From the NCBI RefSeq assembly GCF_000964465.1, contig NZ_BANH01000008.1, positions 1-64,000 on the forward strand: a stretch of DNA of 64,000 nucleotides, in the 5' to 3' direction. Below the pieces are notes generated by a model. The model was not told the DNA's origin. It did not search any database and was given only the letters and a program-made list of their open reading frames with translations. The translations under genes were made by a program, and so were the position numbers. Positions 10,761 through 24,184 of the stretch are shown piece by piece (position 1 is the first letter of the stretch; each line of letters opens with the position of its first letter). Source of the stretch: Gluconobacter thailandicus F149-1 = NBRC 100600 (GTDB lineage: Bacteria; Pseudomonadota; Alphaproteobacteria; Acetobacterales; Acetobacteraceae).

Positions 10761-10952
10761 TCAGTGGCAGCCGCCGGACTTGCCACTACAAGCAGAACAG
10801 TTATCACAGCCTTTGGACGGTGCCTTGGCGGGAATATGGCTCTGGAGGCCCAGGGAGAGCTTCAGCCTTCCCCAGTTCGCCGGGAAAAGGCGTGTGTACC
10901 AGTAAAGCGCTGCAAGAGAGACCAGCAGCACGGCAATGATAGTCTCGATCAT
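10761..10952 (-). CDS. FeoB-associated Cys-rich membrane mini-protein
   Basis: 63 residues: one N-terminal transmembrane segment (MIETIIAVLLVSLAALYWY) and a cytoplasmic Cys-rich tail CDNCSACSGKSGGC. This architecture is typical of the small FeoB-associated proteins that sit where feoC is in enterobacteria. The ATG at 10952-10950 overlaps the feoB stop (TGATG), which indicates translational coupling. The role is thought to be support of Fe(II) transport by FeoB; the exact function is not established. Confidence 0.85.
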   Translation of the reverse strand: MIETIIAVLLVSLAALYWYTRLFPANWGRLKLSLGLQSHIPAKAPSKGCDNCSACSGKSGGCH

Positions 10953-12820
10953 CAGGCTTCTCCTGTGATGGCTTTGGTCAGATGGAAAACGACGAATGCG
11001 GCGAAATATGCCAACCCGAAAAGATAGGCGGTTGCACCTAGAACGATCTTCATCGATCGCGTTTCCCGGCGCATGACAGCCAGGGTGGAAATGCACTGGG
11101 GTGCGTAAACATACCACGCCAGAAGCGACAATGCAGTTGCAATGCTCCATTGGCTGGACAGGAGGGGAAGAAGCTTTTCGGGAGCTGCATCTTCGCTGAC
11201 GCCAAGAGCATAAACGGTCGCCAGCGCGCTCACTGCAACTTCACGGGCCACTAGGCCCGGAATGAGCGATACGCAGATCTGCCAGTTGAAACCGATTGGG
11301 GCGAAAATTGTCAGCATCAGATGGCCAATCCGTCCAGCCAGACTGTAATCAATGGCTGCGCCCGTAGCCCCTTGCGGGGGAAGCGGAAAGCTGGACAGTC
11401 CCCAGAGCAGAACATTCAGCGAAACGATGATTGTTCCAACGCGCGACAGGAACATGACCGCGCGCTGCCAGAGCCCTAACGCCAGACTTTTCAGGTTCGG
11501 GCGACGGTAGGGCGGCAGTTCCAGAAGCAGCGGATGCTCTTCAGATTTGACGCCACGCGTCATGATACGGGCTGCGATCACACCGCTCACAATGGCGACG
11601 GCATACAGCGCGAACAGGACCAGTCCCTGAAGCCCCAGAACTCCCAGAACGGTTTTGTGTGGAATAAATGCGCCAATCAGAAGCGTATAAACCGGCAGAC
11701 GTGCCGAACACGTCATCAATGGAGCGATCAGGATCGTTACCAGCCGGTCACGCGGGTTCTGAATGGTTCGGGCCGCCATAATGCCGGGAATGGCGCAGGC
11801 AAAGCTCGACAGCAGAGGAATGAAAGAGCGTCCGCTCAACCCGGCAAGAGCCATCAGGCGATCAAGTAGAAATGCGGCACGGGGCAGGTAGCCGGATTCC
11901 TCCAGCGCCAGAATCCAGAGGAAGAGGATCAGGATCTGTGGCAGAAAAACGATAACCATGCCTGCACCAGCAATGACGCCATCGGCCAGAAGGCTTTTCA
12001 AAACCCCGTCAGGCAATGGCCTGAGGAGCAGCTCGCCTAGCATGGTTATACCGCCTTCCAGAGCGTCCATGAGGGGCTGGGCCCATGCAAAAACGGTCTG
12101 GAACATGACGAACAGAACAACGAGCAGAATGACCGGCCCCCAGACGGGGTGCAGAAACCAGCGGTCAAGACGATCCACCAGCCTCTCCTGCCCTGCGGAG
12201 CGGTCTGTGACATAGGTCTGGATCAGTCGGCGTACTTCAGCGTGAAGATCCGCACCTGATGGCGAGGGGGCGGGAGGTGGTGGGACAGGGCGATCCAAGG
12301 CCTCCAGGAGGGGTTGAACACCCTGTTTATGCAGGCTGATAACAGGAATAATGGGCATGCCCAAATCGCGCTCAAGTCCTGCAATGTCGATGGACATGCC
12401 GTTACGTTTGGCTTCGTCCATCATGTTGAGGGCAACAATGATGGGGACGCCAAGCTCCCGGAGTTCCAGCAGAAAACGCAGGTGCAGGCGAAGATTGGTC
12501 GCAGAGACAACGCCAATCAGAAGCTGGGGGCGTGTCTCCGTACGATGCCGACCAAGGCAGACATCTCGCGTGACATCTTCATCAGGGCTGGTGGAGGAAA
12601 GGCTGTAGGCTCCCGGAAGGTCCAGAACACGGATAGAGCGGCCCTGCGGGGTGGAGAAGAACCCTTCTTTCCGCTCAACAGTCACACCAGCGTAGTTCGC
12701 GACTTTCTGGCGGCTGCCAGTTAACTGGTTGAACAGTGAAGTTTTGCCGCAGTTGGGATTTCCTACCAACGCGATGTGCAGCGTGGAGTCTGCCTGAAGC
12801 GACGGTGTCGGAGAGGCCAT
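10952..12820 (-). CDS. feoB: Ferrous iron transporter FeoB
   Basis: 622 residues, compact for the family. The N-terminal cytosolic G domain has G1 GNPNCGKTS, the switch region NYAGVTVERKEG, G3 DLPGAYSL and G4 NMMDE. A C-terminal polytopic region with Gate motifs follows (about eight to ten hydrophobic segments from residue 220). It imports Fe(II) across the inner membrane. It is preceded by feoA (8-base gap) and followed by the Cys-rich mini-protein with overlapping stop and start. It probably responds to iron through the Fur-like site upstream of feoA. Confidence 0.95.
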   Translation of the reverse strand: MASPTPSLQADSTLHIALVGNPNCGKTSLFNQLTGSRQKVANYAGVTVERKEGFFSTPQGRSIRVLDLPGAYSLSSTSPDEDVTRDVCLGRHRTETRPQLLIGVVSATNLRLHLRFLLELRELGVPIIVALNMMDEAKRNGMSIDIAGLERDLGMPIIPVISLHKQGVQPLLEALDRPVPPPPAPSPSGADLHAEVRRLIQTYVTDRSAGQERLVDRLDRWFLHPVWGPVILLVVLFVMFQTVFAWAQPLMDALEGGITMLGELLLRPLPDGVLKSLLADGVIAGAGMVIVFLPQILILFLWILALEESGYLPRAAFLLDRLMALAGLSGRSFIPLLSSFACAIPGIMAARTIQNPRDRLVTILIAPLMTCSARLPVYTLLIGAFIPHKTVLGVLGLQGLVLFALYAVAIVSGVIAARIMTRGVKSEEHPLLLELPPYRRPNLKSLALGLWQRAVMFLSRVGTIIVSLNVLLWGLSSFPLPPQGATGAAIDYSLAGRIGHLMLTIFAPIGFNWQICVSLIPGLVAREVAVSALATVYALGVSEDAAPEKLLPLLSSQWSIATALSLLAWYVYAPQCISTLAVMRRETRSMKIVLGATAYLFGLAYFAAFVVFHLTKAITGEA

Positions 12821-12828
12821 GGTACGTG

Positions 12829-13080
12829 TCAGACGGGTCGTCGGAGAACGATCCGGGCGGCTTCCCCTTTACGAAGGGCAAAGCGGGAGGTTCCGAGAGT
12901 GACAGCAATAGGATCTGCGCCGACTGGCCCGGTCGCGACGATTTTGACACTTTCGCCAGGGACAAAGCCGAGTTCACACAGGCGCGCACTGATCGGATCA
13001 GCCGCAGTCCGCTCTTCAACCCGATCAATAATGGCGTAATTCCCCTTGGGGAGCGTATCCAGATACCACATCAGCTTCAT
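12829..13080 (-). CDS. feoA: Ferrous iron transport protein FeoA
   Basis: 83 residues forming a single SH3-like FeoA domain, with RLCELGFVPGESVKIV and the C-terminal FALRKGEAARIVL. FeoA is a small cytosolic partner required for FeoB activity. First gene of the leftward feoA-feoB-small protein operon. Confidence 0.93.
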   Translation of the reverse strand: MKLMWYLDTLPKGNYAIIDRVEERTAADPISARLCELGFVPGESVKIVATGPVGADPIAVTLGTSRFALRKGEAARIVLRRPV

Positions 13081-13313: not shown

Positions 13314-13343
13314 TACGGCATGACCGCAGAGGAGCTGTGTCCC

Positions 13344-13697
13344 ATGAGTATTGTAACAACAAACGATGACGAACTTCCGACAGAAGGGTGTGTTCACTGT
13401 GCCACCAGTGAGACAGCGGGAGAAAAGCGCGTTGAACAGCCGCAGAAAAAGGCACTTCTGAACCGTATTCGCCGCATTGAAGGCCAGGTTGGTGGCGTTC
13501 TGAACATGATTCAGGATGACCGTTACTGCGTGGATATTCTGACGCAGATTTCCGCCATCAAGTCTGCACTGGACGGTGTCTCCATCCAGATTCTGTCCAC
13601 GCATGCCAATGGGTGCGTCAGAAAAGCTGTGCAGGAGGATGGGGGCGAAGAGGCGATTGACGAGCTTTTGCAGGTCGTACGCCGGATGATGCGCTGA
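13344..13697 (+). CDS. csoR: CsoR-type copper-sensing repressor
   Basis: 117 residues, an all-helical DUF156 (CsoR/RcnR/FrmR) fold with RIRRIEGQVGGVLNMIQDDRYCVDIL cut at the usual positions. The Cu(I) ligand set is readable: Cys62, His87 (25 residues later) and Cys91 (4 later), the same spacing as Cys36/His61/Cys65 in M. tuberculosis CsoR. An N-terminal extension of about 35 residues contains a further CVHC. It probably represses the adjacent copper genes until Cu(I) binds. ATG 13344 is preferred; an ATG at 13320 is possible. Confidence 0.9.
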   Translation: MSIVTTNDDELPTEGCVHCATSETAGEKRVEQPQKKALLNRIRRIEGQVGGVLNMIQDDRYCVDILTQISAIKSALDGVSIQILSTHANGCVRKAVQEDGGEEAIDELLQVVRRMMR

Positions 13698-14025: not shown

Positions 14026-14799
14026 TCAGAACCAGCTTCTGATACCGAGGCTGAAGCGGACCGAACCGGGCTTTTCGCCCTGATCGCGCACAATCCTGCG
14101 GGCCTGCGTCAGATGGCCGGAATAGGTGACGCCCACATAAGGGGCGAATTTGCGCCAGAGTTCGTAACGCAGCCGTAGACCGGCATCCACGTCCGACAGG
14201 CCAGCACCTGCCAGTCGGGACGAATCTGACTTTGTGTAAAGATTGAACTCGGCCTGAGGCTGGAGGATGAGCCGGTTGGTCAGCAGAAAGTCATAAGACC
14301 CCTCGACGCGTGCGCCAAAGCGTCCCCGATCGCTGACATAGCCTGTGGCCTGAAACTCGAACTGGTAAAGGGCCAGCCCCTGTATGCCGAAGGCGCCCCA
14401 GGTCCGCGTGGGGCCATCATCCAGATCGACGCGGACGCCGCCCTGAAGGTTCCAGTAAGTCGAAATGGCGCGGCTGTAGAGAATGTCCTGCTGGCCGTCG
14501 CTCAGGCGCCCTTTTTCAAGGGTGCCTTCTGACTTGATCCAGAGGCGGTCATAATCCGTGCCATACCAGACTTCACCATCCCAGCGGAAATCAGTGCCAG
14601 ATGGTGCGTAACGCCCTTCGGCCTGTTCAAGAATACCGTGGAACCAGCTGCTCTGGTCCATCATGACGGGCATGATATTGCCAAGATGCGTGACGGCTCC
14701 TGGAACAGGCGCGTCTGCGGCCTGATATTGCGGGCTGTCTTTCGCATGCGCTGTCCCAGCCCCAACAAGGAACAGCACTGTTGCCAACACGGCTCTCAT
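14026..14799 (-). CDS. copB: Copper resistance outer-membrane protein CopB/PcoB
   Basis: 257 residues: a signal peptide (MRAVLATVLFLVGAGTAHA), then a beta-barrel with the PcoB-type run FRWDGEVWYGTDYDRLW near the N-terminus, ending in a terminal aromatic (IRSWF). It lacks the long Met-rich N-terminal region of some homologues. ATG 14799-14797 overlaps the copA stop (ATGA), so translation is coupled. It probably exports or sequesters copper at the outer membrane together with the multicopper oxidase. Confidence 0.92.
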   Translation of the reverse strand: MRAVLATVLFLVGAGTAHAKDSPQYQAADAPVPGAVTHLGNIMPVMMDQSSWFHGILEQAEGRYAPSGTDFRWDGEVWYGTDYDRLWIKSEGTLEKGRLSDGQQDILYSRAISTYWNLQGGVRVDLDDGPTRTWGAFGIQGLALYQFEFQATGYVSDRGRFGARVEGSYDFLLTNRLILQPQAEFNLYTKSDSSRLAGAGLSDVDAGLRLRYELWRKFAPYVGVTYSGHLTQARRIVRDQGEKPGSVRFSLGIRSWF

Positions 14800-16580
14800 G
14801 ACACCACCACGGTACGGAACATGCCAAGATCCATGTGGTACAGTAGGTGACAGTGATAGGCCCACATGCCGGGGACATCCGCTGTGACAAGATAGCTCAT
14901 GCGGGACCCAGGCTGGGAAATGATGGTGTGCTTGTAAGGGCGGTATTCTCCCTGGCCGTTCTCCAGTTCGCTCCAGAGGCCATGCAGATGGATCGGGTGT
15001 TCCATCATCGTGTCGTTGATTAATGTGAAACGGACACGTTCGCCCTTTTTCAGTTTGATCGGCCCGGATTCCGAGAATTTCCTGCCATTGAAGCCCCAGA
15101 TATAGCGCTCCATATTGCCGGTCAGGTGCAGGATGATTTCCCGTGAGGGTGGGCGCGGGTCTGCGCCGGGCCGTGTGGCACGAAGCTGTTTATAGTTCAG
15201 GACACGACGGCCGTTATTCTCCAGTCCGTCCCCTGGGCTGCCTGTTCGGTCCATGGGCATCATGGCGACGTTCTGGTTCTCTACGTTGATGGGAGGTGGC
15301 CCCGGATCGTCCACTTCCATTTGCGGCATGGCCATGTGCCCCATATGGCTCATGTCCATACCTGCCATGTGCATGTGGTCCATCCCCTTCATGTCCATGC
15401 CGGACATGGACATGTGATCCATGCTTTCGCCCGGCTTCATTTCTCCCATGCCCATATCCACCATGGTGCGGACAGGGCGGGGGTCCATGGGCGGGATCAG
15501 ACTGCTCATGCCGACGCGAGGGGCCAGTGTTCCGCGGGCAAAGCCTGTGCGATCCTCGCTCTGGGCAAAGATTGTGTACGCGCGGTCTTCCTTTGGCTGC
15601 ACGATGACGTCATAGGTTTCCGCTACCCCGATCCGGAATTCATCGACCGGAACCGGCTCGACATCGTTTCCATCCGCCTGAACGACCAGCATCTCGAGAC
15701 CCGGAATACGGACGTCAAACAGCGTCATGGTGGCGCCATTGATGAACCGCAGACGCACGCGCTCGCCGGGGCGGAACAGACCGTTCCAGTTCATGTCCGG
15801 GGCATGGCCGTTGAGCGTATAGGTGTAAATGGCGCCGGAGACGTCCGCGATGTCGGTCGCCGCCATGTTCATCCGGGACCAGGCGAGCCTGTCTTTCAGT
15901 GCGGCCATGGCGCTTCCGGCTTCCCGGGCTTCTTTCGGGAAGGACGCAGCCGTGCGTTGGCGGAAGACGTAATAATCGTCCTGCATTTTGAGATTGTTCA
16001 CGATGTCATGGGGCATGACATCGGTCCATTCCCCCAGAAAGACGACATAATCCCGGTCACAGACATTTGGGTCAGGACGGATTGGGTCAATGACGATTGC
16101 GCCATACAGGCCCATCGCTTCCTGCATGTTGGAATGGCTGTGATACCAGTATGTGCCACTCTGATGCAGACGAAAGCGATAGGTGAAGGTTTCGCCGGGT
16201 GGGATGCCCGCAAAACTCAGGCCGGGTACGCCGTCCATATTCGCTGGTACTCGAATTCCGTGCCAGTGGATCGAGGTTGTTTCATCCAGCATATTCCGGA
16301 CATTCAGAGTGACGGTCTCACCCTGTTTCCAGCGCAGGATGGGACCAGGGACAGTGCCGCCAATGCTGGGCGCATGCATGGATTTTCCATCCAGGGAAAC
16401 ATGCGTGCGGCTGACCTCCAGGTCCCATGTATTGGACGGCATTGCGGGCAGGCAGCCGGAAGACGGGCGACCTTCGGCTTTTGCCTGTTGAGGCAGGGCG
16501 CTCAGGCAGGCCCCGGCGCCAAGACTTGTGACGAAGCGACGACGCGTCAAACCGCGTGCGAGACTGGAAAAACTGTGCAT
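14796..16580 (-). CDS. copA: Multicopper oxidase CopA (copper resistance)
   Basis: 594 residues. A Tat-type signal (RRRFVTSLGAGA) exports the folded enzyme. All four copper-ligand blocks are visible: HWHGIRVP, YWYHSHS, HPIHLHG and AYHCHLLYHMD, the last ending in a type-1 Met-like ligand context. Around residues 385-430 there is a Met/His-rich insert (repeats such as MDHMSMSGMDMKGMDHM), typical of PcoA/CopA, which binds Cu(I) for oxidation to Cu(II). It lies in an operon with copB and is preceded by a His-rich small protein. The P-type ATPase at 21809 shares the name CopA but is a different protein. Confidence 0.95.
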   Translation of the reverse strand: MHSFSSLARGLTRRRFVTSLGAGACLSALPQQAKAEGRPSSGCLPAMPSNTWDLEVSRTHVSLDGKSMHAPSIGGTVPGPILRWKQGETVTLNVRNMLDETTSIHWHGIRVPANMDGVPGLSFAGIPPGETFTYRFRLHQSGTYWYHSHSNMQEAMGLYGAIVIDPIRPDPNVCDRDYVVFLGEWTDVMPHDIVNNLKMQDDYYVFRQRTAASFPKEAREAGSAMAALKDRLAWSRMNMAATDIADVSGAIYTYTLNGHAPDMNWNGLFRPGERVRLRFINGATMTLFDVRIPGLEMLVVQADGNDVEPVPVDEFRIGVAETYDVIVQPKEDRAYTIFAQSEDRTGFARGTLAPRVGMSSLIPPMDPRPVRTMVDMGMGEMKPGESMDHMSMSGMDMKGMDHMHMAGMDMSHMGHMAMPQMEVDDPGPPPINVENQNVAMMPMDRTGSPGDGLENNGRRVLNYKQLRATRPGADPRPPSREIILHLTGNMERYIWGFNGRKFSESGPIKLKKGERVRFTLINDTMMEHPIHLHGLWSELENGQGEYRPYKHTIISQPGSRMSYLVTADVPGMWAYHCHLLYHMDLGMFRTVVVS

Positions 16581-16664: not shown

Positions 16665-17066
16665 TCAGGACAGCTGCGATTTGGGGGGAGGGGGGGTGGG
16701 GATCCAGTCTGTGCCAGACAGGGACGGATGGCCAGACTGAACGAAGCGCCCGGAAATGGCGATCTGAGTGGAAAGCGGCGTCAAATGTGCAAGCGCCAGT
16801 GCGGGCTCTGCTGACGTCGCATGAATATGGCAGCAGCCTTGCCCGTGACTGTCATGATGATGGGGCGAAGCCTCTGACGTCATGTTCTGCATGTCATGCT
16901 GGGCACAACTGACGGAAGCGGATTGTGTCATGGATGTACAGTGATCCATGGTCATGGTGTGTGCTCGGGTTGCGGCATGAGCCGGAAATGCACCAGCCAT
17001 CACTCCGATCTGCATCAGCAGACAGGCGATCAGACCAAGCCATCTCCGGGTATGCGTTCTGAGCAT
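16665..17066 (-). CDS. His/Met-rich small exported protein (CopL/DUF2946-like)
   Basis: 133 residues. It begins MLRTHTRRWLGLIACLLMQIG as a signal or anchor, followed by a metal-binding-looking region with MTMDHCTSM, HHHDSHGQGCCHIH and several further Cys, and a proline-rich end (TPPPPKSQLS). It resembles the short CopL or DUF2946 proteins that precede copAB in other proteobacteria, which are linked to copper-dependent expression or binding. ATG 17066 follows AGGG and is preferred; the open frame extends to 17195 without family character. First gene of the leftward operon. Confidence 0.75.
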   Translation of the reverse strand: MLRTHTRRWLGLIACLLMQIGVMAGAFPAHAATRAHTMTMDHCTSMTQSASVSCAQHDMQNMTSEASPHHHDSHGQGCCHIHATSAEPALALAHLTPLSTQIAISGRFVQSGHPSLSGTDWIPTPPPPKSQLS

Positions 17067-17271
17067 CTCAGATCCCTGTTCCAGACAGACAGCCGATTTC
17101 TTCTGTCTGCTTTGTGGCTCGATCCTATACCGGGGCAGGGAATAAATGGAAGAGCGATTTCTGGTGAGAGGTGTTTTTGATGGATACCCGCCCACCGTAT
17201 ATAAATTTTAATTCGTTCCATTAACGATTTTAATTTCAAAACTCTCTCTGAATTGCCTAAGGAAAAAGTAC

Positions 17272-17288
17272 ATACCCAAAGGGGGTAT
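17272..17288 (+). promoter_or_regulatory. CsoR-type operator overlapping the copZ -10 element
   Basis: ATACCC-N5-GGGTAT, perfect 6-base arms over 17 bases. The right arm runs into a consensus TATAAT (17286-17291), 48 bases before the copZ ATG. A repressor here would block polymerase. It matches, as far as I recall, the dyad used by CsoR at copZA promoters. It also lies in the shared region with the leftward copper operon. Confidence 0.65.
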
Positions 17289-17339: not shown

Positions 17340-17552
17340 ATGACACAGACAGCACATCTGACGGTTGAGGGAATGTCTTGTGAAGGATGTGCGAAGCGTC
17401 TTCGAGAGGCGCTGGAGGGTGTCGATGGTGTTTCCGCCGTGGCTGTCGTTCTGGATGGTGGCCAGGTGACGATTGCCTATGATCCGACTGTTACAACCGT
17501 GGCAGGTTTGCGCGAAGCCGTTGAAGAGACAGGCTTTGATGCAGTTCCATAG
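17340..17552 (+). CDS. copZ: Heavy-metal-associated copper chaperone (CopZ-like)
   Basis: 70 residues, a single HMA domain with the metal site GMSCEGCAKR (Cys-X2-Cys) and the usual babbab length. It carries Cu(I) in the cytosol, most likely to the CopA ATPase encoded further downstream. ATG 17340 follows GGGGGCAAAGAAG. It is divergent from the copper oxidase operon. Confidence 0.92.
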   Translation: MTQTAHLTVEGMSCEGCAKRLREALEGVDGVSAVAVVLDGGQVTIAYDPTVTTVAGLREAVEETGFDAVP

Positions 17553-17700
17553 CGCGCGTCTGCCTTCTCATTCCTGAGGGCGCGCGATAGACAGGCATCC
17601 GGTTCAACAGGTGAAACCAGTACCGGGTGTCATGTCGCAGAATAATATTCTTAAAGTGAAACAGATCATGCGGCAGTCTTATCATTTCTGGGCGGGTTTC

Positions 17701-20028
17701 ATGACACATCACAGCGTAAACACGCTGCGGCGGTCCGCTCTTTTCTCTGTTTCCGGTTCAGCCCTGATTTGCGGAACCTTGGTGATGGGGGGTATTCCCG
17801 ATGCACAGGCCTCAGAGTTTGGTGAAAAGGGCCGTCAGAAAGTGTCCCGCTGCCATGATGTTCAGGGGGCAGGTTCCAAAATTGCACAGACGTGCAGGAA
17901 GGCCTCTGCTCTTCCTGCACTCTCCCAGCCTTCGACTCCCAGCCCCTCAGGAAATGATGACGAGACGTCCGTTGTGAGTGGTGGCACGGAAAATCTGCGC
18001 GTCTATGGAACGTCCCGCTCCTATACGGCTCCGGCTGTGGAAGCCTGGGGGAAAACGCCTGTTGCCCTCAAGGATATTCCGCACTCGATTTCCGTAATCA
18101 CACAGCAGCGGATGGAAGATTCCAACATGCTGACGATGACGGACGCCATGCGTCAGATCAACGGTATCCGTGTTCTCCCAGGATCGACGGCCAATAGCAA
18201 TTTCTATTCACGCGGCTATCAACTCACCACCTCGATTGATGAAACGCCCAATGCGGCGGGAACACTAAACAACGCAAGTTTTGATCTTTCCATGTATGAG
18301 AGGATCGAAGTCATGCGTGGGTCAGCCGGCCTGCTGCAAGGCGCGGGCGGGGCTGGCGGCGTGGTCAATCAGGTTACGAAGAAGCCCGGGAAGGATTTCG
18401 CGGCAAGCGGAAATGCGACGGTTGGCAGCTTTAATAATTACCGCGCGGATATGGATCTGACTATTCCGCTGAACCACTCCAAAACACTGCGTTTCCGTAC
18501 GGCCGATCTCTTTCAGGATAACGATTACTTCTACAAATATGCCCATAACCGAAGCTGGCAGGCTTACGGTGTTCTGGAATGGGATATAACGCCGTCCACC
18601 ACGTTTCTGGTCTCTCATGCAGCGCAGAAACAAAACATTGACGCACCGTATTACGGATTGCCAGTCACAACGACACGTACCCTCTGGTATGGGGGCAGGG
18701 ATGCAAATCCAACGCCACCCTGGGGATATAGTGATTACATGACCCAGCAGACGATTGCGTCTCTGACGCAGAAGCTCTGGGGAGACTGGGCGCTCACAGC
18801 TCGTGGGACTTTTTATGACCAGAATTACAACACGTCATATAATGCTCCTGACACTCTTCCGAATGCGCGGACGGGCCTGACAAGTTATGTGGATGGTGGG
18901 ACCTTCCCCAATCGCGGAACCAATACGTCCCGGTCAGCCGATGTTTATGCCACAGGTAGTTTCCGGCTTCTGCACCGCACGCATCACCTGCTTCTGGGTT
19001 TCAATTACAACGCCTATAATACGCATGTTGGGTATGGTGCTGTTACGTCGGATACGGAGTATTCTGATGTCAGCATTAATAATACGGCGGTTGTGAAGGC
19101 GCCCCCTGCGGGCAGCATCACCTATAATGCTGCGGATGGTGCGGAAGGAGCGGATGACAACGCCTATCAGTGGGGGTTCTACGGACAGCTTCGGCTTCAA
19201 GTGATCCGCCATCTGTCCCTGATTCTTGGCGGACGTGTATCGCGCTTTTCCGAAAAAACGCGAGTTTCCAGTCCTTCTCCGGAAGGACCATGGAAGACGA
19301 CCGCCAATATTCACGGTCAGCTTACGCCCTATCTGGGGACGGTCTATCAGATCACACCCAACCTTTCCTGGTACGCCAGCTATGCCAGTATTTTCACACC
19401 TTCTGTCGGGCGTCTGACCTACAATGGGGACGGCCTGACGCCGCAGCAGGGCAATCAGGTCGAGACAGGTTTCAAGGGTGAGTATTTCCACGGTCGCCTG
19501 AATTTTTCGACTGCACTTTTCCGCATGGAAAGTGTCAATCAGCCCGTTCAGGATCCCGATCACACAAACTTTTACATCACGACTGGCCCTATTCGCCGGC
19601 AGGGCTGGGAAGCGCAGGTTGATGGGCAGATCATGCCGGGGCTCGATGTGTCTGTTGGATACACATATCTGGATACCAAGGTTTCCAACCCGAAAGTTTC
19701 CGATTTCGGGGGCGTTTTTTCACCGCATCACATGTTCAAATCCTGGGTGCATTACAATGCACAGCAGGGCCGTCTGAAAGGGCTGAGTTTTGGTGTTGGA
19801 CTGGATGCATACAGCAACCTCAGGGGCAGTTATGCGACGACAGTTCAAGGGGGGTACATGACGCTCGACAGCGTTGTCGGATATCGCTTTAACAAACATC
19901 TTAAGCTTCAGCTTAATACCTACAACCTGACCAACCGCTATTATTATGAACGTGCCAGTGGCGTCTGGCGGCTCAATTTCCCGGCCGCTCCCCGCAGTTT
20001 CATGGCAACGCTTCGTGGCACGTACTGA
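17701..20028 (+). CDS. TonB-dependent siderophore-type receptor (FhuE/FpvA-like)
   Basis: About 775 residues. The signal peptide from ATG 17701 runs to DAQA. The plug reads IPHSISVITQQRMED, with the TonB siderophore-receptor pattern YERIEVMRGSAGLL and GAGGVVNQVTKKP. The barrel ends in the FhuE-like form RYYYERASGVWR and PRSFMATLRGTY. Earlier in-frame starts at 17611 and 17668 cannot be excluded. It sits inside the copper locus, between copZ and the copper ATPase, and its 3' end overlaps the next gene, so the ligand could be a copper- or iron-chelate. No Fur-like site was seen upstream. Confidence 0.88.
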   Translation: MTHHSVNTLRRSALFSVSGSALICGTLVMGGIPDAQASEFGEKGRQKVSRCHDVQGAGSKIAQTCRKASALPALSQPSTPSPSGNDDETSVVSGGTENLRVYGTSRSYTAPAVEAWGKTPVALKDIPHSISVITQQRMEDSNMLTMTDAMRQINGIRVLPGSTANSNFYSRGYQLTTSIDETPNAAGTLNNASFDLSMYERIEVMRGSAGLLQGAGGAGGVVNQVTKKPGKDFAASGNATVGSFNNYRADMDLTIPLNHSKTLRFRTADLFQDNDYFYKYAHNRSWQAYGVLEWDITPSTTFLVSHAAQKQNIDAPYYGLPVTTTRTLWYGGRDANPTPPWGYSDYMTQQTIASLTQKLWGDWALTARGTFYDQNYNTSYNAPDTLPNARTGLTSYVDGGTFPNRGTNTSRSADVYATGSFRLLHRTHHLLLGFNYNAYNTHVGYGAVTSDTEYSDVSINNTAVVKAPPAGSITYNAADGAEGADDNAYQWGFYGQLRLQVIRHLSLILGGRVSRFSEKTRVSSPSPEGPWKTTANIHGQLTPYLGTVYQITPNLSWYASYASIFTPSVGRLTYNGDGLTPQQGNQVETGFKGEYFHGRLNFSTALFRMESVNQPVQDPDHTNFYITTGPIRRQGWEAQVDGQIMPGLDVSVGYTYLDTKVSNPKVSDFGGVFSPHHMFKSWVHYNAQQGRLKGLSFGVGLDAYSNLRGSYATTVQGGYMTLDSVVGYRFNKHLKLQLNTYNLTNRYYYERASGVWRLNFPAAPRSFMATLRGTY

Positions 20029-21739
20029 AGACCCGCCCCCCCAGCATTCCCTTTCGGACTGGAGGGTTCTTCTCCCCTACTGGCGATCAGAAGATCGGTG
20101 GAAAGCACTGGGGCTTCTGGGGGGAATTATCGGTCTGTCGTTTCTGGATGTGCAGGTTGCTGTCTGGTTCGGGAAATGGGACCAGACGTTTTTCGATACG
20201 ATGTTCGCGTATAAAGTCGAAGCCTGTATCGCGCTTATTCCGATCTATCTCATGATGATGGGGTTGAGTGCGGGGATGCGCGTCATCCAGCAATACATGA
20301 CGCAGGTTCTCTCCATGCGCTGGCGTCTGTGGAACACGCGGGTCTATCTGCGAAAATACCTGTCCGATGATGCGTATTATCATCTGGAACATGGAGAAAA
20401 CCGGGCCGATAACCCCGATCAGCGTATCGCGGATGATCTGGCGCAGATGACGGTCTGGACATTACGGCTCGGTCTGGACGCCATCCAGGCGGTCACGACT
20501 TTTCTGTCGTTCGCGGTTGTCCTCTGGACGATTGGCGGCACGTTGTCTTTTGTCTGGCAAGGCTGGCACATCGTCGTTCCGGGCTACATGTTTTTCGGGA
20601 CGACATTTTCCATTCTGCTGATTTCTCTGGTTCTGGAAAAAGCAGGTGGCCCGCTCGTCAGTGCCAATTATCGCCAGCAGCATTATGATGCCGATCTGCG
20701 TGCGGCTCTGCTGGATGTGCGCCGGAATTCGGAACAGATTGCTTTTTATGGTGGTGAAGGTGCAGAGCATTTCCGGCTTTCGGAATGTCTGCACCATATT
20801 GCGACCAACTGGCGCAGCGTGATGACGTATACGTGGCGTGCCAATACCGTGGTCGAGCTTTATACGGGCGGGATCAATATCGTCCTGTGGGCATTGCTGA
20901 TCCCGAAGCTTCTGGCGCATACGCTGACGTTTGGTCTGTATTCCCGAATCAATTCGGCGTTCATGAATGTGCGCAGAAGCCTGCAATGGTTCATCGAAAA
21001 CTATACGGATCTGGCCACTCTACGCTCCATCCTTCAGCGTCTGAGTGAATTCGAGCGTGTTGTGACGGGACGCCCCGAAGGTGGGATTGTCCGTACACCG
21101 GTGGAGCAGGGGCAAATCGAGATCAGGGATCTGGTTCTTGATCGCGCCGATGGATCGCGGATTGCTACTGTTGGGGATCTGACAATCCCAACGGGGGCGC
21201 GTCTGATAATCGGGGGCGCGTCCGGAGCGGGAAAGAGTACGCTTCTACGAGCATTGGCGGGGCTTTGGACCTGCGGGGCGGGAAGTGTTTCCTTTAACAT
21301 GCGCGAAGCCATGTTTCTGCCGCAACGAAGTTACGTTCCTACGGGGACGCTTCGGCAGGCCCTCAGCTATCCGGCTACGCCTGATCGATATGAACGGGAT
21401 GCGTGTGAGACTGCTCTGGAGGCCGCTAATCTGGGAGACCTCGTGTCAAAGCTGGACCGCGAAGCTGCATGGAGTGACGTGCTTTCCCCTGGCGAGCAGC
21501 AGCGTCTGGCCTTTGCCCGTGTTTTTCTGACCAGGCCTGCGATGCTCTTTCTGGATGAAGCAACATCAGCGCTCGATGAAGACAATGAGGCGCTTCTTTA
21601 TACGCGCCTTCTTGCGCTTTTGCCGGACGTGACCCTCATGAGTGTGGCGCATCATTCAGGCCTGAAGCGATTTCATGACCGGGAAGCTGTTCTTTCCCAG
21701 CAGGGCATGACGATTCAGGTTCTTCATAATACCATATAG
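19946..21739 (+). CDS. YddA/BclA-like ABC transporter (fused permease and ATPase)
   Basis: 597 residues. The N-terminal membrane domain has about six segments and the ABC_membrane_2 signature NPDQRIADDL (roughly residues 155-165). The ATPase has Walker A GGASGAGKST, signature LSPGEQQR and Walker B MLFLDEATSALD. This half-transporter type includes YddA, BclA and the SbmA/BacA-related peptide or vitamin B12 carriers, and works as a homodimer. The first ATG (19946) lies 83 bases inside the receptor gene; GTG 20015 also lies inside it, so the two genes overlap whichever is used. With the receptor it forms an outer-plus-inner-membrane pair. Its direction cannot be told from sequence. Confidence 0.85.
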   Translation: MNVPVASGGSISRPLPAVSWQRFVARTEDPPPQHSLSDWRVLLPYWRSEDRWKALGLLGGIIGLSFLDVQVAVWFGKWDQTFFDTMFAYKVEACIALIPIYLMMMGLSAGMRVIQQYMTQVLSMRWRLWNTRVYLRKYLSDDAYYHLEHGENRADNPDQRIADDLAQMTVWTLRLGLDAIQAVTTFLSFAVVLWTIGGTLSFVWQGWHIVVPGYMFFGTTFSILLISLVLEKAGGPLVSANYRQQHYDADLRAALLDVRRNSEQIAFYGGEGAEHFRLSECLHHIATNWRSVMTYTWRANTVVELYTGGINIVLWALLIPKLLAHTLTFGLYSRINSAFMNVRRSLQWFIENYTDLATLRSILQRLSEFERVVTGRPEGGIVRTPVEQGQIEIRDLVLDRADGSRIATVGDLTIPTGARLIIGGASGAGKSTLLRALAGLWTCGAGSVSFNMREAMFLPQRSYVPTGTLRQALSYPATPDRYERDACETALEAANLGDLVSKLDREAAWSDVLSPGEQQRLAFARVFLTRPAMLFLDEATSALDEDNEALLYTRLLALLPDVTLMSVAHHSGLKRFHDREAVLSQQGMTIQVLHNTI

Positions 21740-21745
21740 GGGTAT
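21729..21745 (+). promoter_or_regulatory. CsoR-type operator before the copper ATPase, overlapping the upstream stop codon
   Basis: ATACC-N7-GGTAT, 17 bases like the copZ site, embedding the TAG stop (21737-21739) of the ABC transporter gene and followed by TATATT (21743-21748), a likely -10. It lies 63 bases before ATG 21809. It suggests separate copper-controlled transcription of the ATPase. Confidence 0.55.
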
Positions 21746-21808
21746 ATTCCTCTTTCGTTTTCCGGAGCCGCTGGTTTCGCGACTCTCGCCAGCTCAGGAG
21801 ATGTTCAG

Positions 21809-24184
21809 ATGGTCCAGACAATAAGTTTTCCAGTTGGTGGGATGACTTGCGCAGCCTGTGCTGCGAGAATCGAAAAAGTGCTAAACCGGCAGAGCGGTGT
21901 TCATGCGACTGTCAACTTTGCTTCCGAGCGGGCTCAGGTTGATCTGGACGGACCGGAAGCAAATGCTGGAAATGTTGTCGCTGCTGTTCGTAAGGCCGGT
22001 TTCTCTGTTGACGAACAGAGTGTGGATTTCGCGATTACTGGCATGACCTGTGCAGCCTGCGCGGCGCGGATTGAGAAAGTGCTGAGCCGTATGCCCTCCG
22101 TTCAGGGCAGCGTGAATTATGCGGCTGAACGCGCTCATGTCACCTATATTCCTGGCATTGTTACCCCGGAAGATCTGGCGGCCAAGATTACGAAAGCGGG
22201 TTTCGGAGCGACCCGTCTTGATGACGGTCAGCGTGAAGATCCGAAAGCAAAGCGTGAGGCCGTCTGGCGGAAAGAGCGTAACCGCTTCCTGCTGACGTTT
22301 ATTCTGGCTCTGCCGCTCTTCGTTGAAATGTTCGGGATGCTGCTGGGGCGAATGGAAACCGTGCCGGTGGCCGTGCAGTTTGTCAGTGCCACACTGGTGC
22401 AGTTCGTCTGCGGAGCGCATCTGTATCGCCGAGCCTGGAATGCGGTGCGTGGCGGATCGGCGAATATGGATGTGCTGGTCGTTCTTGGAACGAGCATTGC
22501 GTATCTGTTCAGCGCGATTGTCGTCCTGTTCCGTCTGGATCAGCCGGTTTATTTTGAAGCCAGTGGCGCGATCATTACCCTGATTTCGCTGGGCAAGCTG
22601 ATGGAGACGCGTGCCAAGGTCCGCACGAGTGCCGGGATCGAAAGCCTGCTTCAGCTTCAACCACAGACTGCGCATGTAGAACGTGATGGCGTTCTGGTTG
22701 ATCGGGCGGTAGCGGATATGCATGTCGGAGACGTGTTTGTTGTCCGACCCGGTGAGAGCATCCCGGTGGATGGAACTGTTCTCGACGGATCTTCGGACGT
22801 CAACGAAGCCATGCTGACCGGCGAAAGCGTACCGTCTCTGAAACAGACCGGAAGTGACGTCTTTGGCGGCACGATCAATGCGAATGGCGTGCTGCGGGTC
22901 CAGGCGACAGGTGTGGGTTCTGATACGGCGCTGGCGCGGATTGTGCGTATGGTCGAGCAGGCGCAGGGGTCGAAAGCCAATGTGCAACGGCTTGCGGATC
23001 GTGTGTCCGGGATCTTCGTTCCGGCAGTCGTGGCGTTTGCTGTTGTGACGTTCCTGATCGGCTGGCTTGTGACGGGGTCTGCAACGTGGAGCCTGGTTTC
23101 AGCAGTCTCCGTGCTGGTGATTGCCTGTCCTTGCTCGCTGGGGCTTGCGACCCCGACGGCCATTATGGTGGGCACCGGGCGAGGCGCGCAGAACGGGATT
23201 CTGTTCCGGAATGCTGATGCGCTGGAACGTGCTGAAAAACTTTCAACGATCATTCTCGACAAGACCGGAACGCTGACGCAGGGGCGACCTGGTGTGAGTT
23301 GTCTGCACCCTGTTGATGGAGTGTCAGTGGAGCGCCTGCTGGCAGTAGCCGCGTCGCTGGAACAGAATTCCGAGCATCCGCTCGCCCGTGCGATTGTGGA
23401 TCATGGGGCTGCGCACCACGCGACAATTCTGAGCGTTGACGGGTTCAAGGCCGTGCCAGGTCTGGGCGTTGAAGCCCAACTTGAAGGTGAGCCTGCGTTG
23501 CTCGGTTCTCCCCGTTATCTCGCCGAAGCCGGATATGACCTGACGGCCTTGCCGGTGGATGCTCTGGAAAGCGAGGGGCAGACGGTCATTGCTGTTGCGA
23601 CGGGCGGGCAGCTTCTGGGCATTATTGCTCTGGGAGACAACCTGCGGCCTGATGCTGTTTCGACGGTTGCGGCCCTCAAGGCGCGTGGCATCAAGGTTGT
23701 CATGCTGACGGGCGATAATGAGCGGACCGCCGCAGTTGTGGCGCGGCAGGTCGGTGTGGATGATTATCTGGCTGGCGTCCTGCCACAGCATAAGGCGGAA
23801 GGTGTGGCACGCTACCGGGCTGAGGGGCGAGTCGTCGGGATGGTCGGGGACGGCGTCAATGATGCGCCGGCGCTGGCTGCTGCGGATGTCGGTTTTGCCA
23901 TTGGTGCAGGATCGGCTGTTGCACTTGATACGGCTGATGTCGTGCTGATGAAGAGCGAACTGACAAGCGTTCTGGATGCGATTTCCCTGTCTCGTGCGAC
24001 GCTTTCCAAGATCCGTCAGAACCTCTTCTTCGCGTTCATTTACAACCTTCTGGGTCTGCCTTTGGCGGCTTTGGGAATGTTGAACCCGATTGTCGCGGGG
24101 GCCGCCATGGCGATGAGCTCGGTCTCGGTCGTAAGTAATTCGCTTCTTCTCAACCGTTGGAAGCCTGAAGCAAAGCGCTCCTAG
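21809..24184 (+). CDS. copA: Cu(I)-translocating P1B-type ATPase CopA
   Basis: 791 residues. It has two N-terminal HMA domains (GMTCAACAAR, Cys14/17 and Cys81/84), then eight transmembrane segments with the Cu(I) transport motif CPC at 440-442 (ACPCSLGLATPTA), phosphorylation at Asp484 in DKTGTLTQG, HP in EHPLARA, and the hinge MVGDGVNDAPAL. It pumps Cu(I) from cytosol to periplasm, where the multicopper oxidase acts. Its own CsoR-type dyad lies upstream. The last codons converge with the hydrolase gene: the two stop codons share CTAG at 24181-24184. Confidence 0.96.
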   Translation: MVQTISFPVGGMTCAACAARIEKVLNRQSGVHATVNFASERAQVDLDGPEANAGNVVAAVRKAGFSVDEQSVDFAITGMTCAACAARIEKVLSRMPSVQGSVNYAAERAHVTYIPGIVTPEDLAAKITKAGFGATRLDDGQREDPKAKREAVWRKERNRFLLTFILALPLFVEMFGMLLGRMETVPVAVQFVSATLVQFVCGAHLYRRAWNAVRGGSANMDVLVVLGTSIAYLFSAIVVLFRLDQPVYFEASGAIITLISLGKLMETRAKVRTSAGIESLLQLQPQTAHVERDGVLVDRAVADMHVGDVFVVRPGESIPVDGTVLDGSSDVNEAMLTGESVPSLKQTGSDVFGGTINANGVLRVQATGVGSDTALARIVRMVEQAQGSKANVQRLADRVSGIFVPAVVAFAVVTFLIGWLVTGSATWSLVSAVSVLVIACPCSLGLATPTAIMVGTGRGAQNGILFRNADALERAEKLSTIILDKTGTLTQGRPGVSCLHPVDGVSVERLLAVAASLEQNSEHPLARAIVDHGAAHHATILSVDGFKAVPGLGVEAQLEGEPALLGSPRYLAEAGYDLTALPVDALESEGQTVIAVATGGQLLGIIALGDNLRPDAVSTVAALKARGIKVVMLTGDNERTAAVVARQVGVDDYLAGVLPQHKAEGVARYRAEGRVVGMVGDGVNDAPALAAADVGFAIGAGSAVALDTADVVLMKSELTSVLDAISLSRATLSKIRQNLFFAFIYNLLGLPLAALGMLNPIVAGAAMAMSSVSVVSNSLLLNRWKPEAKRS

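Follow-up and report, generated by a model that had tools for sequence, protein, structure and literature searches.

Copper-gene linkage of a copZ-receptor-ABC transporter cassette in Gluconobacter and related genera, with a possible role in copper uptake

The entry of copper into bacteria is far less understood than the pumping of copper out of the cell. Among the closest described systems, CruR of Bordetella has been proven to sense copper and turns off a copper-importing TonB-dependent receptor when copper is present (PMC9426467, PMC12914433). In Escherichia coli, yddA-yddB-pqqL form one transcript that encodes the YddA ABC transporter and a TonB-dependent receptor (PMC3855560). The function of YddA-type transporters is listed as unknown, Rv1819c of Mycobacterium tuberculosis is an importer, and microcin J25 is cited in the same paper as using the TonB pathway and then SbmA (PMC13316013). 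Copper-importing receptors and receptor-YddA pairs are both already known. Yersiniabactin, a metallophore that also binds Cu(II), is imported by the TonB-dependent receptor FyuA together with the exporter-fold ABC proteins YbtP and YbtQ.

The window analyzed in this work is a stretch of 64 kb (64,000 nucleotides) of the Gluconobacter thailandicus genome. It contains a block in which csoR reads rightward, the genes for CopB, a multicopper oxidase and a small Cys/His-rich protein read leftward, and copZ, the receptor, the ABC transporter and copA again read rightward. The block comprises the following features:

13320..13697, + strand: csoR, copper-sensing repressor (Trns_repr_metal, E 4.8e-30)
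14026..14865, - strand: copB, outer-membrane copper resistance protein (PF05275, E 1.6e-75)
14796..16580, - strand: CopA-type multicopper oxidase (TIGR01480, 801.7 bits)
16665..17066, - strand: small exported Cys/His-rich protein, head of the oxidase-copB operon (frame conserved in Gluconobacter relatives)
17127..17143, no strand: CsoR-like dyad, 9/10 (conserved in the alignment of relatives; probably serves the leftward operon)
17184..17200, no strand: CsoR-like dyad, 9/10 (site of the perfect dyad in the other Gluconobacter clade)
17272..17288, no strand: perfect CsoR-like dyad ATACCCAAAGGGGGTAT (overlaps the TATAAT of copZ)
17340..17552, + strand: module-specific copper chaperone CopZ (MSCEGC; HMA, E 1.6e-17)
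17701..20028, + strand: TonB-dependent receptor, siderophore type (TIGR01783; frame open from 17611)
20015..21739, + strand: YddA/BclA-type half-ABC transporter, membrane domain plus ATPase (frame open from ATG 19946)
21729..21745, no strand: perfect CsoR-like dyad ATACCATATAGGGGTAT (spans the ABC stop codon, 5' of copA, overlaps TATATT)
21809..24184, + strand: Cu(I) P1B-ATPase CopA (TIGR01511, 596.6 bits)

Profile matches confirmed the order and strands given by the sequence-only reading of this DNA, which had placed copZ, the receptor, the ABC transporter and the CopA ATPase in one rightward row. The nearest named relatives over the ABC protein are G. frateurii (93%), G. japonicus (90%) and G. 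cerinus (82%). The CsoR sequence follows the pattern C-x24-H-x3-C (RYC...THANGC), a Cys/His/Cys spacing that matches the known Cu(I) ligands of CsoR. For the small Cys/His-rich protein the start was chosen by eye, ahead of a signal peptide. This protein had no match in Pfam; its layout is like that of DUF2946/CruR proteins, but without a clear CXXC-RAPP pair. The feoB and feoA genes (window 10952-13080) adjoin csoR and are retained there in most Gluconobacter species, iron and copper genes forming one common neighborhood in this genus.

The receptor start is most likely best set at ATG 17701, because this codon is aligned in the Gluconobacter relatives and is followed by a signal peptide. This choice leaves a gap of 148 nt between copZ and the receptor, in which no terminator-like site was found. 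The ABC gene overlaps the receptor gene, as had been proposed, but the proposed extent of up to 83 nt, which derives from ATG 19946, is probably too long: the ABC gene most likely starts at GTG 20015, so that the conserved overlap would measure 14 nt. A GTG occupies this place in 27 of 27 intact copies, a conservation imposed in part by the C-terminal codons of the receptor, whereas ATG 19946 is ACG in about half of the intact copies. ACG is unable to start a gene. The GTG start is thus favored mainly because the ATG is lost, rather than because GTG is present. Similarity over the first 24 residues of the ABC protein was rejected as support for the ATG start, since the receptor codons in the overlap account for it and ACG often replaces the ATG.

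The receptor belongs to the siderophore-type family TIGR01783 (295.5 bits against a cut-off of 223.5) and matches both PF07715 and PF00593, with no domains beyond plug and barrel. FptA is the closest solved relative (1xkw, E 1.5e-90), and the nearest solved relatives as a group, FptA, FpvA, FauA and FhuE, are iron-siderophore receptors. OprC is recognized by a Met/Cys copper site with a plug Cys; the OprC-type copper receptor family (TIGR01778) is absent from the 23 families matching the receptor, and no Cys is invariant across receptor orthologues. The CrtA type is defined by the CrtA sequence cluster with an invariant His358 and binding-site residues; the receptor has only a distant match (E 4e-17, against 1.6e-90 for FptA) to PDB chain 9rvq, a TonB-dependent receptor of 732 aa that we take to be possibly CrtA. 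Met/His conservation in the receptor showed no copper-site signal that would set it apart from ordinary siderophore receptors. The ABC protein combines an ABC_membrane_2/SbmA_BacA membrane domain with a fused, intact ABC ATPase, as is diagnostic of the YddA/BclA type (PF06472 141.8, PF05992 82.3 and PF00005 68.7 bits). All of its ATPase motifs are intact (Walker A GASGAGKS, LSPGEQQR, LFLDE, SVAHH), and its best solved match is Rv1819c (6tqe, residues 102-583, E 4e-70). On this sequence evidence its family is YddA/BclA-type, an assignment that makes no choice between YddA and BclA. AlphaFold runs on six-sequence alignments gave a pLDDT of 24 for the receptor and 42 for the ABC protein, and these models were unusable.

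Perfect ATACC-N7-GGTAT sites occur only twice in the 64 kb, at 17272 and 21729, and 30 Markov-chain shuffles of the window gave 0 perfect dyads. Lying before copZ and before copA, these two sites bear out the earlier observation of matching ATACC-type dyads at both flanking copper genes. Genome-wide, there was no enrichment (4 sites versus 5 for the reversed control), and the argument from the dyads therefore rests on positional conservation: relatives hold a dyad in the same intervals although the surrounding sequence differs. Only the frateurii-japonicus-cerinus clade has a perfect dyad near copA; in the other Gluconobacter clade a degenerate copA-side dyad occupies the same place, with the cassette present or missing. 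Since the copA-side dyad is kept without the cassette, copA probably has its own control element. A csoR gene encoding Cys-His-Cys ligands nearby and palindromic dyads over promoters are the sequence marks of a CsoR regulon; both are present in the window, and from them we infer CsoR control of the cassette in Gluconobacter.

The receptor-ABC pair was found in 31 genomes of four genera. It is present in 16 of 26 Gluconobacter species, always at this site (one pair decayed, one split by a contig end), in Gluconacetobacter sacchari (L070), in 10 of 49 species of a genus denoted g31 and in all four species of a genus denoted g73. Receptor orthologues are restricted to 4 of the 102 genera of the family, with 0 in 384 other genomes sampled in the class, and every receptor orthologue seen was accompanied by the ABC gene. 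Other, generic YddA-like genes of the family, at about 35-39% identity, had no match to this receptor beside them, and plasmid searches with two related loci gave no matches. Nine of the ten Gluconobacter species without the pair also lack the module copZ, while G314 retains copZ, followed by approximately 1 kb of DNA that reads as IS-like and then by copA. Decay of the cassette was also seen as frame breaks in G306, G350 and G810 (loci L101:7347-10756, L116:10883-12660, L125:1934-5760 and L105:8593-9683, G314 included). Between the two Gluconobacter clades (L046 and L093-L100 versus L066-L069), the receptor and ABC protein are about 63-72% identical, less than the 79% of CopA, and the two clades stay apart in the receptor tree; there is a hint that the receptor and ABC genes may have been replaced through transfer at the same site.

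Each of the 31 copies adjoins a copper gene. Such retention contradicts one of the outcomes that had been named in advance as fatal to the earlier idea, namely, absence of the pairing in relatives and insertion by chance. The gene directly 5' of the pair is copZ in 21 copies, a CruR-type leader (DUF2946, CXXC…R[A/G]PP) in nine, and a decayed copZ in one. In Gluconobacter, copZ lies 5' and copA 3' of the pair, the decayed copZ being that of G316. In G. sacchari, copZ is followed by a second perfect dyad and then by the receptor and ABC genes, with copA inverted; copper control is thus no mere hitch-hiker on copA. The first lineage of g31 (five species) has the order copZ-receptor-ABC with no dyad before copZ, and copA is convergent wherever the contig extends to it. 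In L120 (4808-7799), the module copZ directly follows bc1-complex genes, namely those for cytochrome b, cytochrome c1 and the Rieske protein, and in L121 the cassette likewise lies directly behind cytochrome bc1 genes, as judged by the same reading-frame run; the arrangement may connect the cassette with respiration.

In the second g31 lineage (five species) and in g73 (four), a DUF2946 frame with CXXC and RAPP or RGPP stands directly before the receptor, and a copZ was not found. A CruR leader directly 5' of the receptor, the mark of a CrtA-type operon, thus occurs in nine g31/g73 genomes but not in the window or elsewhere in Gluconobacter, where copZ sits instead. Because DUF2946 is rare, with at most five matches per genome across 49 g31 species, the presence of CruR leaders before the receptor in nine of nine cases is not chance. 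The ABC tree separates the two control types by a single change, the receptor tree by two. The surroundings of the g31 and g73 copies yielded no feo genes. In g73 (L049:11049-14719, L050:5350-8999, L052:5406-10339), CruR, receptor and ABC genes are followed by an FAD-dependent (DAO) oxidase and a penicillin-amidase family enzyme, with a beta-lactamase-family protein in addition in L052; these enzymes may act on the imported ligand, or they may just be neighbors. The description of the pair as enclosed in a copper regulon consequently fits Gluconobacter and G. sacchari and does not extend to the copZ/bc1 or CruR contexts of g31 and the CruR context of g73.

In each of the 26 Gluconobacter genomes a copZ-like gene lies at a different place, with 42-51% identity to the module copZ. 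The module gene comes as an additional copy in 15 of the 16 genomes with the pair and in 1 of the 10 without it, the latter having IS-like DNA in place of the pair (Fisher p 3e-5, with species treated as independent though related). Moreover, the module CopZs of three genera group in a single clade that is distinct from the core CopZs of Gluconobacter (support 100/98). This separate clade and the co-inheritance define copZ-receptor-ABC as the unit, with copA and the oxidase genes as neighbors. The copA gene adjoins the oxidase-copB genes also in Gluconobacter species without the cassette, and is inverted in G. sacchari and in g31 copies where visible. A fixed four-gene operon of copZ, receptor, ABC and copA was rejected for these reasons, copA having its own element with or without the cassette; judged by gene order, copA is a neighbor outside it. 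The search for this conserved order, suggested with the sequence-only reading, recovered copZ directly before the receptor-ABC pair in 21 of 31 copies, but not copA as a fixed member.

With confidence slightly above even, we read copZ-receptor-ABC as a three-gene copper-import cassette, presumably co-transcribed and, in Gluconobacter, under CsoR. The TonB-dependent receptor would bind a small chelate, probably copper-loaded, and bring it into the periplasm; a homodimer of the YddA/BclA-type ABC protein would use ATP hydrolysis to move the chelate to the cytoplasm, in the way that Rv1819c imports cobalamin; and the dedicated CopZ would accept the released Cu(I) and deliver it, perhaps to CsoR or, in the supply of cuproenzymes such as quinol oxidase, to CopA. 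A receptor combined with an importer in the inner membrane and a cytosolic copper chaperone of its own suggests a copper-bearing molecule carried to the cytoplasm, with its copper passed to CopZ. TonB-dependent receptors of the siderophore class import, and import is the direction favored by the precedents for this receptor and for YddA-type ABC proteins. The lack of an OprC match or invariant Cys in the receptor and its iron-siderophore relatives count against this reading, and no chelate or ligand-biosynthesis gene was identified in the block. The earlier view of the receptor and ABC protein as one copper-tied unit, rather than plain copper efflux, is supported in part, its firm component being the conservation and constant copper linkage. 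The peptide nature of the ligand and its identity as a chalkophore, both suggested with that view, gained no support.

The expected signs of control are more difficult to reconcile. CsoR frees promoters at high copper, and CruR acts oppositely; the same cassette would thus be copper-induced in one context and copper-repressed in the other, and high copper is an odd time for an importer. Either the sign differs by genus, or CsoR control in Gluconobacter serves iron relief, ligand recovery or an importer kept in step with chaperone and efflux. Because of this conflict, a quarter of the weight stays with an iron explanation, unlikely as we consider it, in which the receptor and ABC protein import a ferric (xeno)siderophore and CsoR induces them because Fe-S clusters suffer and iron uptake is blocked when copper is in excess. 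Copper excess does fit CsoR-type induction, the closest solved receptors bind iron siderophores, and feoA/feoB adjoin csoR in the conserved Gluconobacter neighborhood. However, nine genomes have the genes under CruR, expected to switch them off with copper, feo genes were not seen near the g31 and g73 copies, and it is hard to see what a private copper chaperone would contribute to iron uptake.

We regard as improbable a role in detoxification or metallophore cycling, where the ABC protein sends out a ligand for copper or a drug-like peptide and the receptor takes the ligand back once loaded, or where the pair imports a protective ligand in copper excess. The CsoR dyads and the copA/oxidase/copB neighborhood would suit it, the direction of exporter-fold half-ABC proteins is hard to tell from sequence, and one report examines E. 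coli YddA as a putative multidrug exporter (PMC9728188); against this, the block holds no ligand biosynthesis genes, the nearest solved relative Rv1819c is an importer, and the CruR context suits scarcity rather than excess. Very improbable is that the pair handles an unrelated nutrient and merely shares its location with copper genes, for although three promoter contexts (CsoR dyad, bc1 genes, CruR) indicate that the cassette moves, each move ends beside copZ or CruR, with 31 of 31 copies copper-linked.

In the open-access literature searched, we did not find this combination with a private CopZ and a change of regulator between genera, nor any study of this locus in work on Gluconobacter CsoR or copper TonB-dependent receptors; that literature likewise yielded no complete copper route that crosses the two membranes and includes a dedicated chaperone. 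Returning to the copper-import reading, we tentatively propose, at somewhat less than even confidence, a self-contained Gram-negative copper-uptake cassette of receptor, ABC importer and private chaperone that takes up a copper-carrying molecule under CsoR dyads or CruR leaders, depending on the genus. One transporter set would then answer to CsoR in one genus and to CruR in another, and the cassette indicates a possible cargo for YddA-type transporters. With three genes, it is short and deletable, occurs in industrial Gluconobacter, and has natural relatives without it.

The cassette can be compared with several known systems. FptA is the closest solved receptor by sequence, but its operon serves pyochelin, with another inner-membrane route and no known copper genes. 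The FyuA-YbtP/YbtQ system has a heterodimeric ABC transporter of another subfamily, is iron-regulated and comes with biosynthesis genes. On a Burkholderia glumae plasmid (L113:1641-7770), receptor, TonB, ExbB, ExbD and YddA-type ABC genes lie in one run with an Lrp/AsnC regulator gene ahead. Rv1819c resembles the ABC protein as its best solved match and as an ATP-driven importer, but it has no outer-membrane receptor partner and its substrates are cobalamin and other hydrophilic compounds. In contrast to the cassette, yddA-yddB-pqqL is reported to be Fur-linked, has a protease in place of the copper chaperone and no copper gene, and places the ABC gene before the receptor. CrtA (BfrG), from the cruR-crtA-pepSY operon of Bordetella pertussis, is a receptor of a different subfamily and usually pairs with a PepSY_TM protein rather than an ABC transporter, and, unlike for the cassette, no dedicated CopZ has been described. 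The CrtA operon is headed by a DUF2946 copper-sensing leader, a likeness that holds for the g31 and g73 copies and not for Gluconobacter, and what CrtA has in common with the proposed cassette is a TonB-dependent receptor, import of chelated copper and a link to respiration (PMC9426467, PMC12914433).
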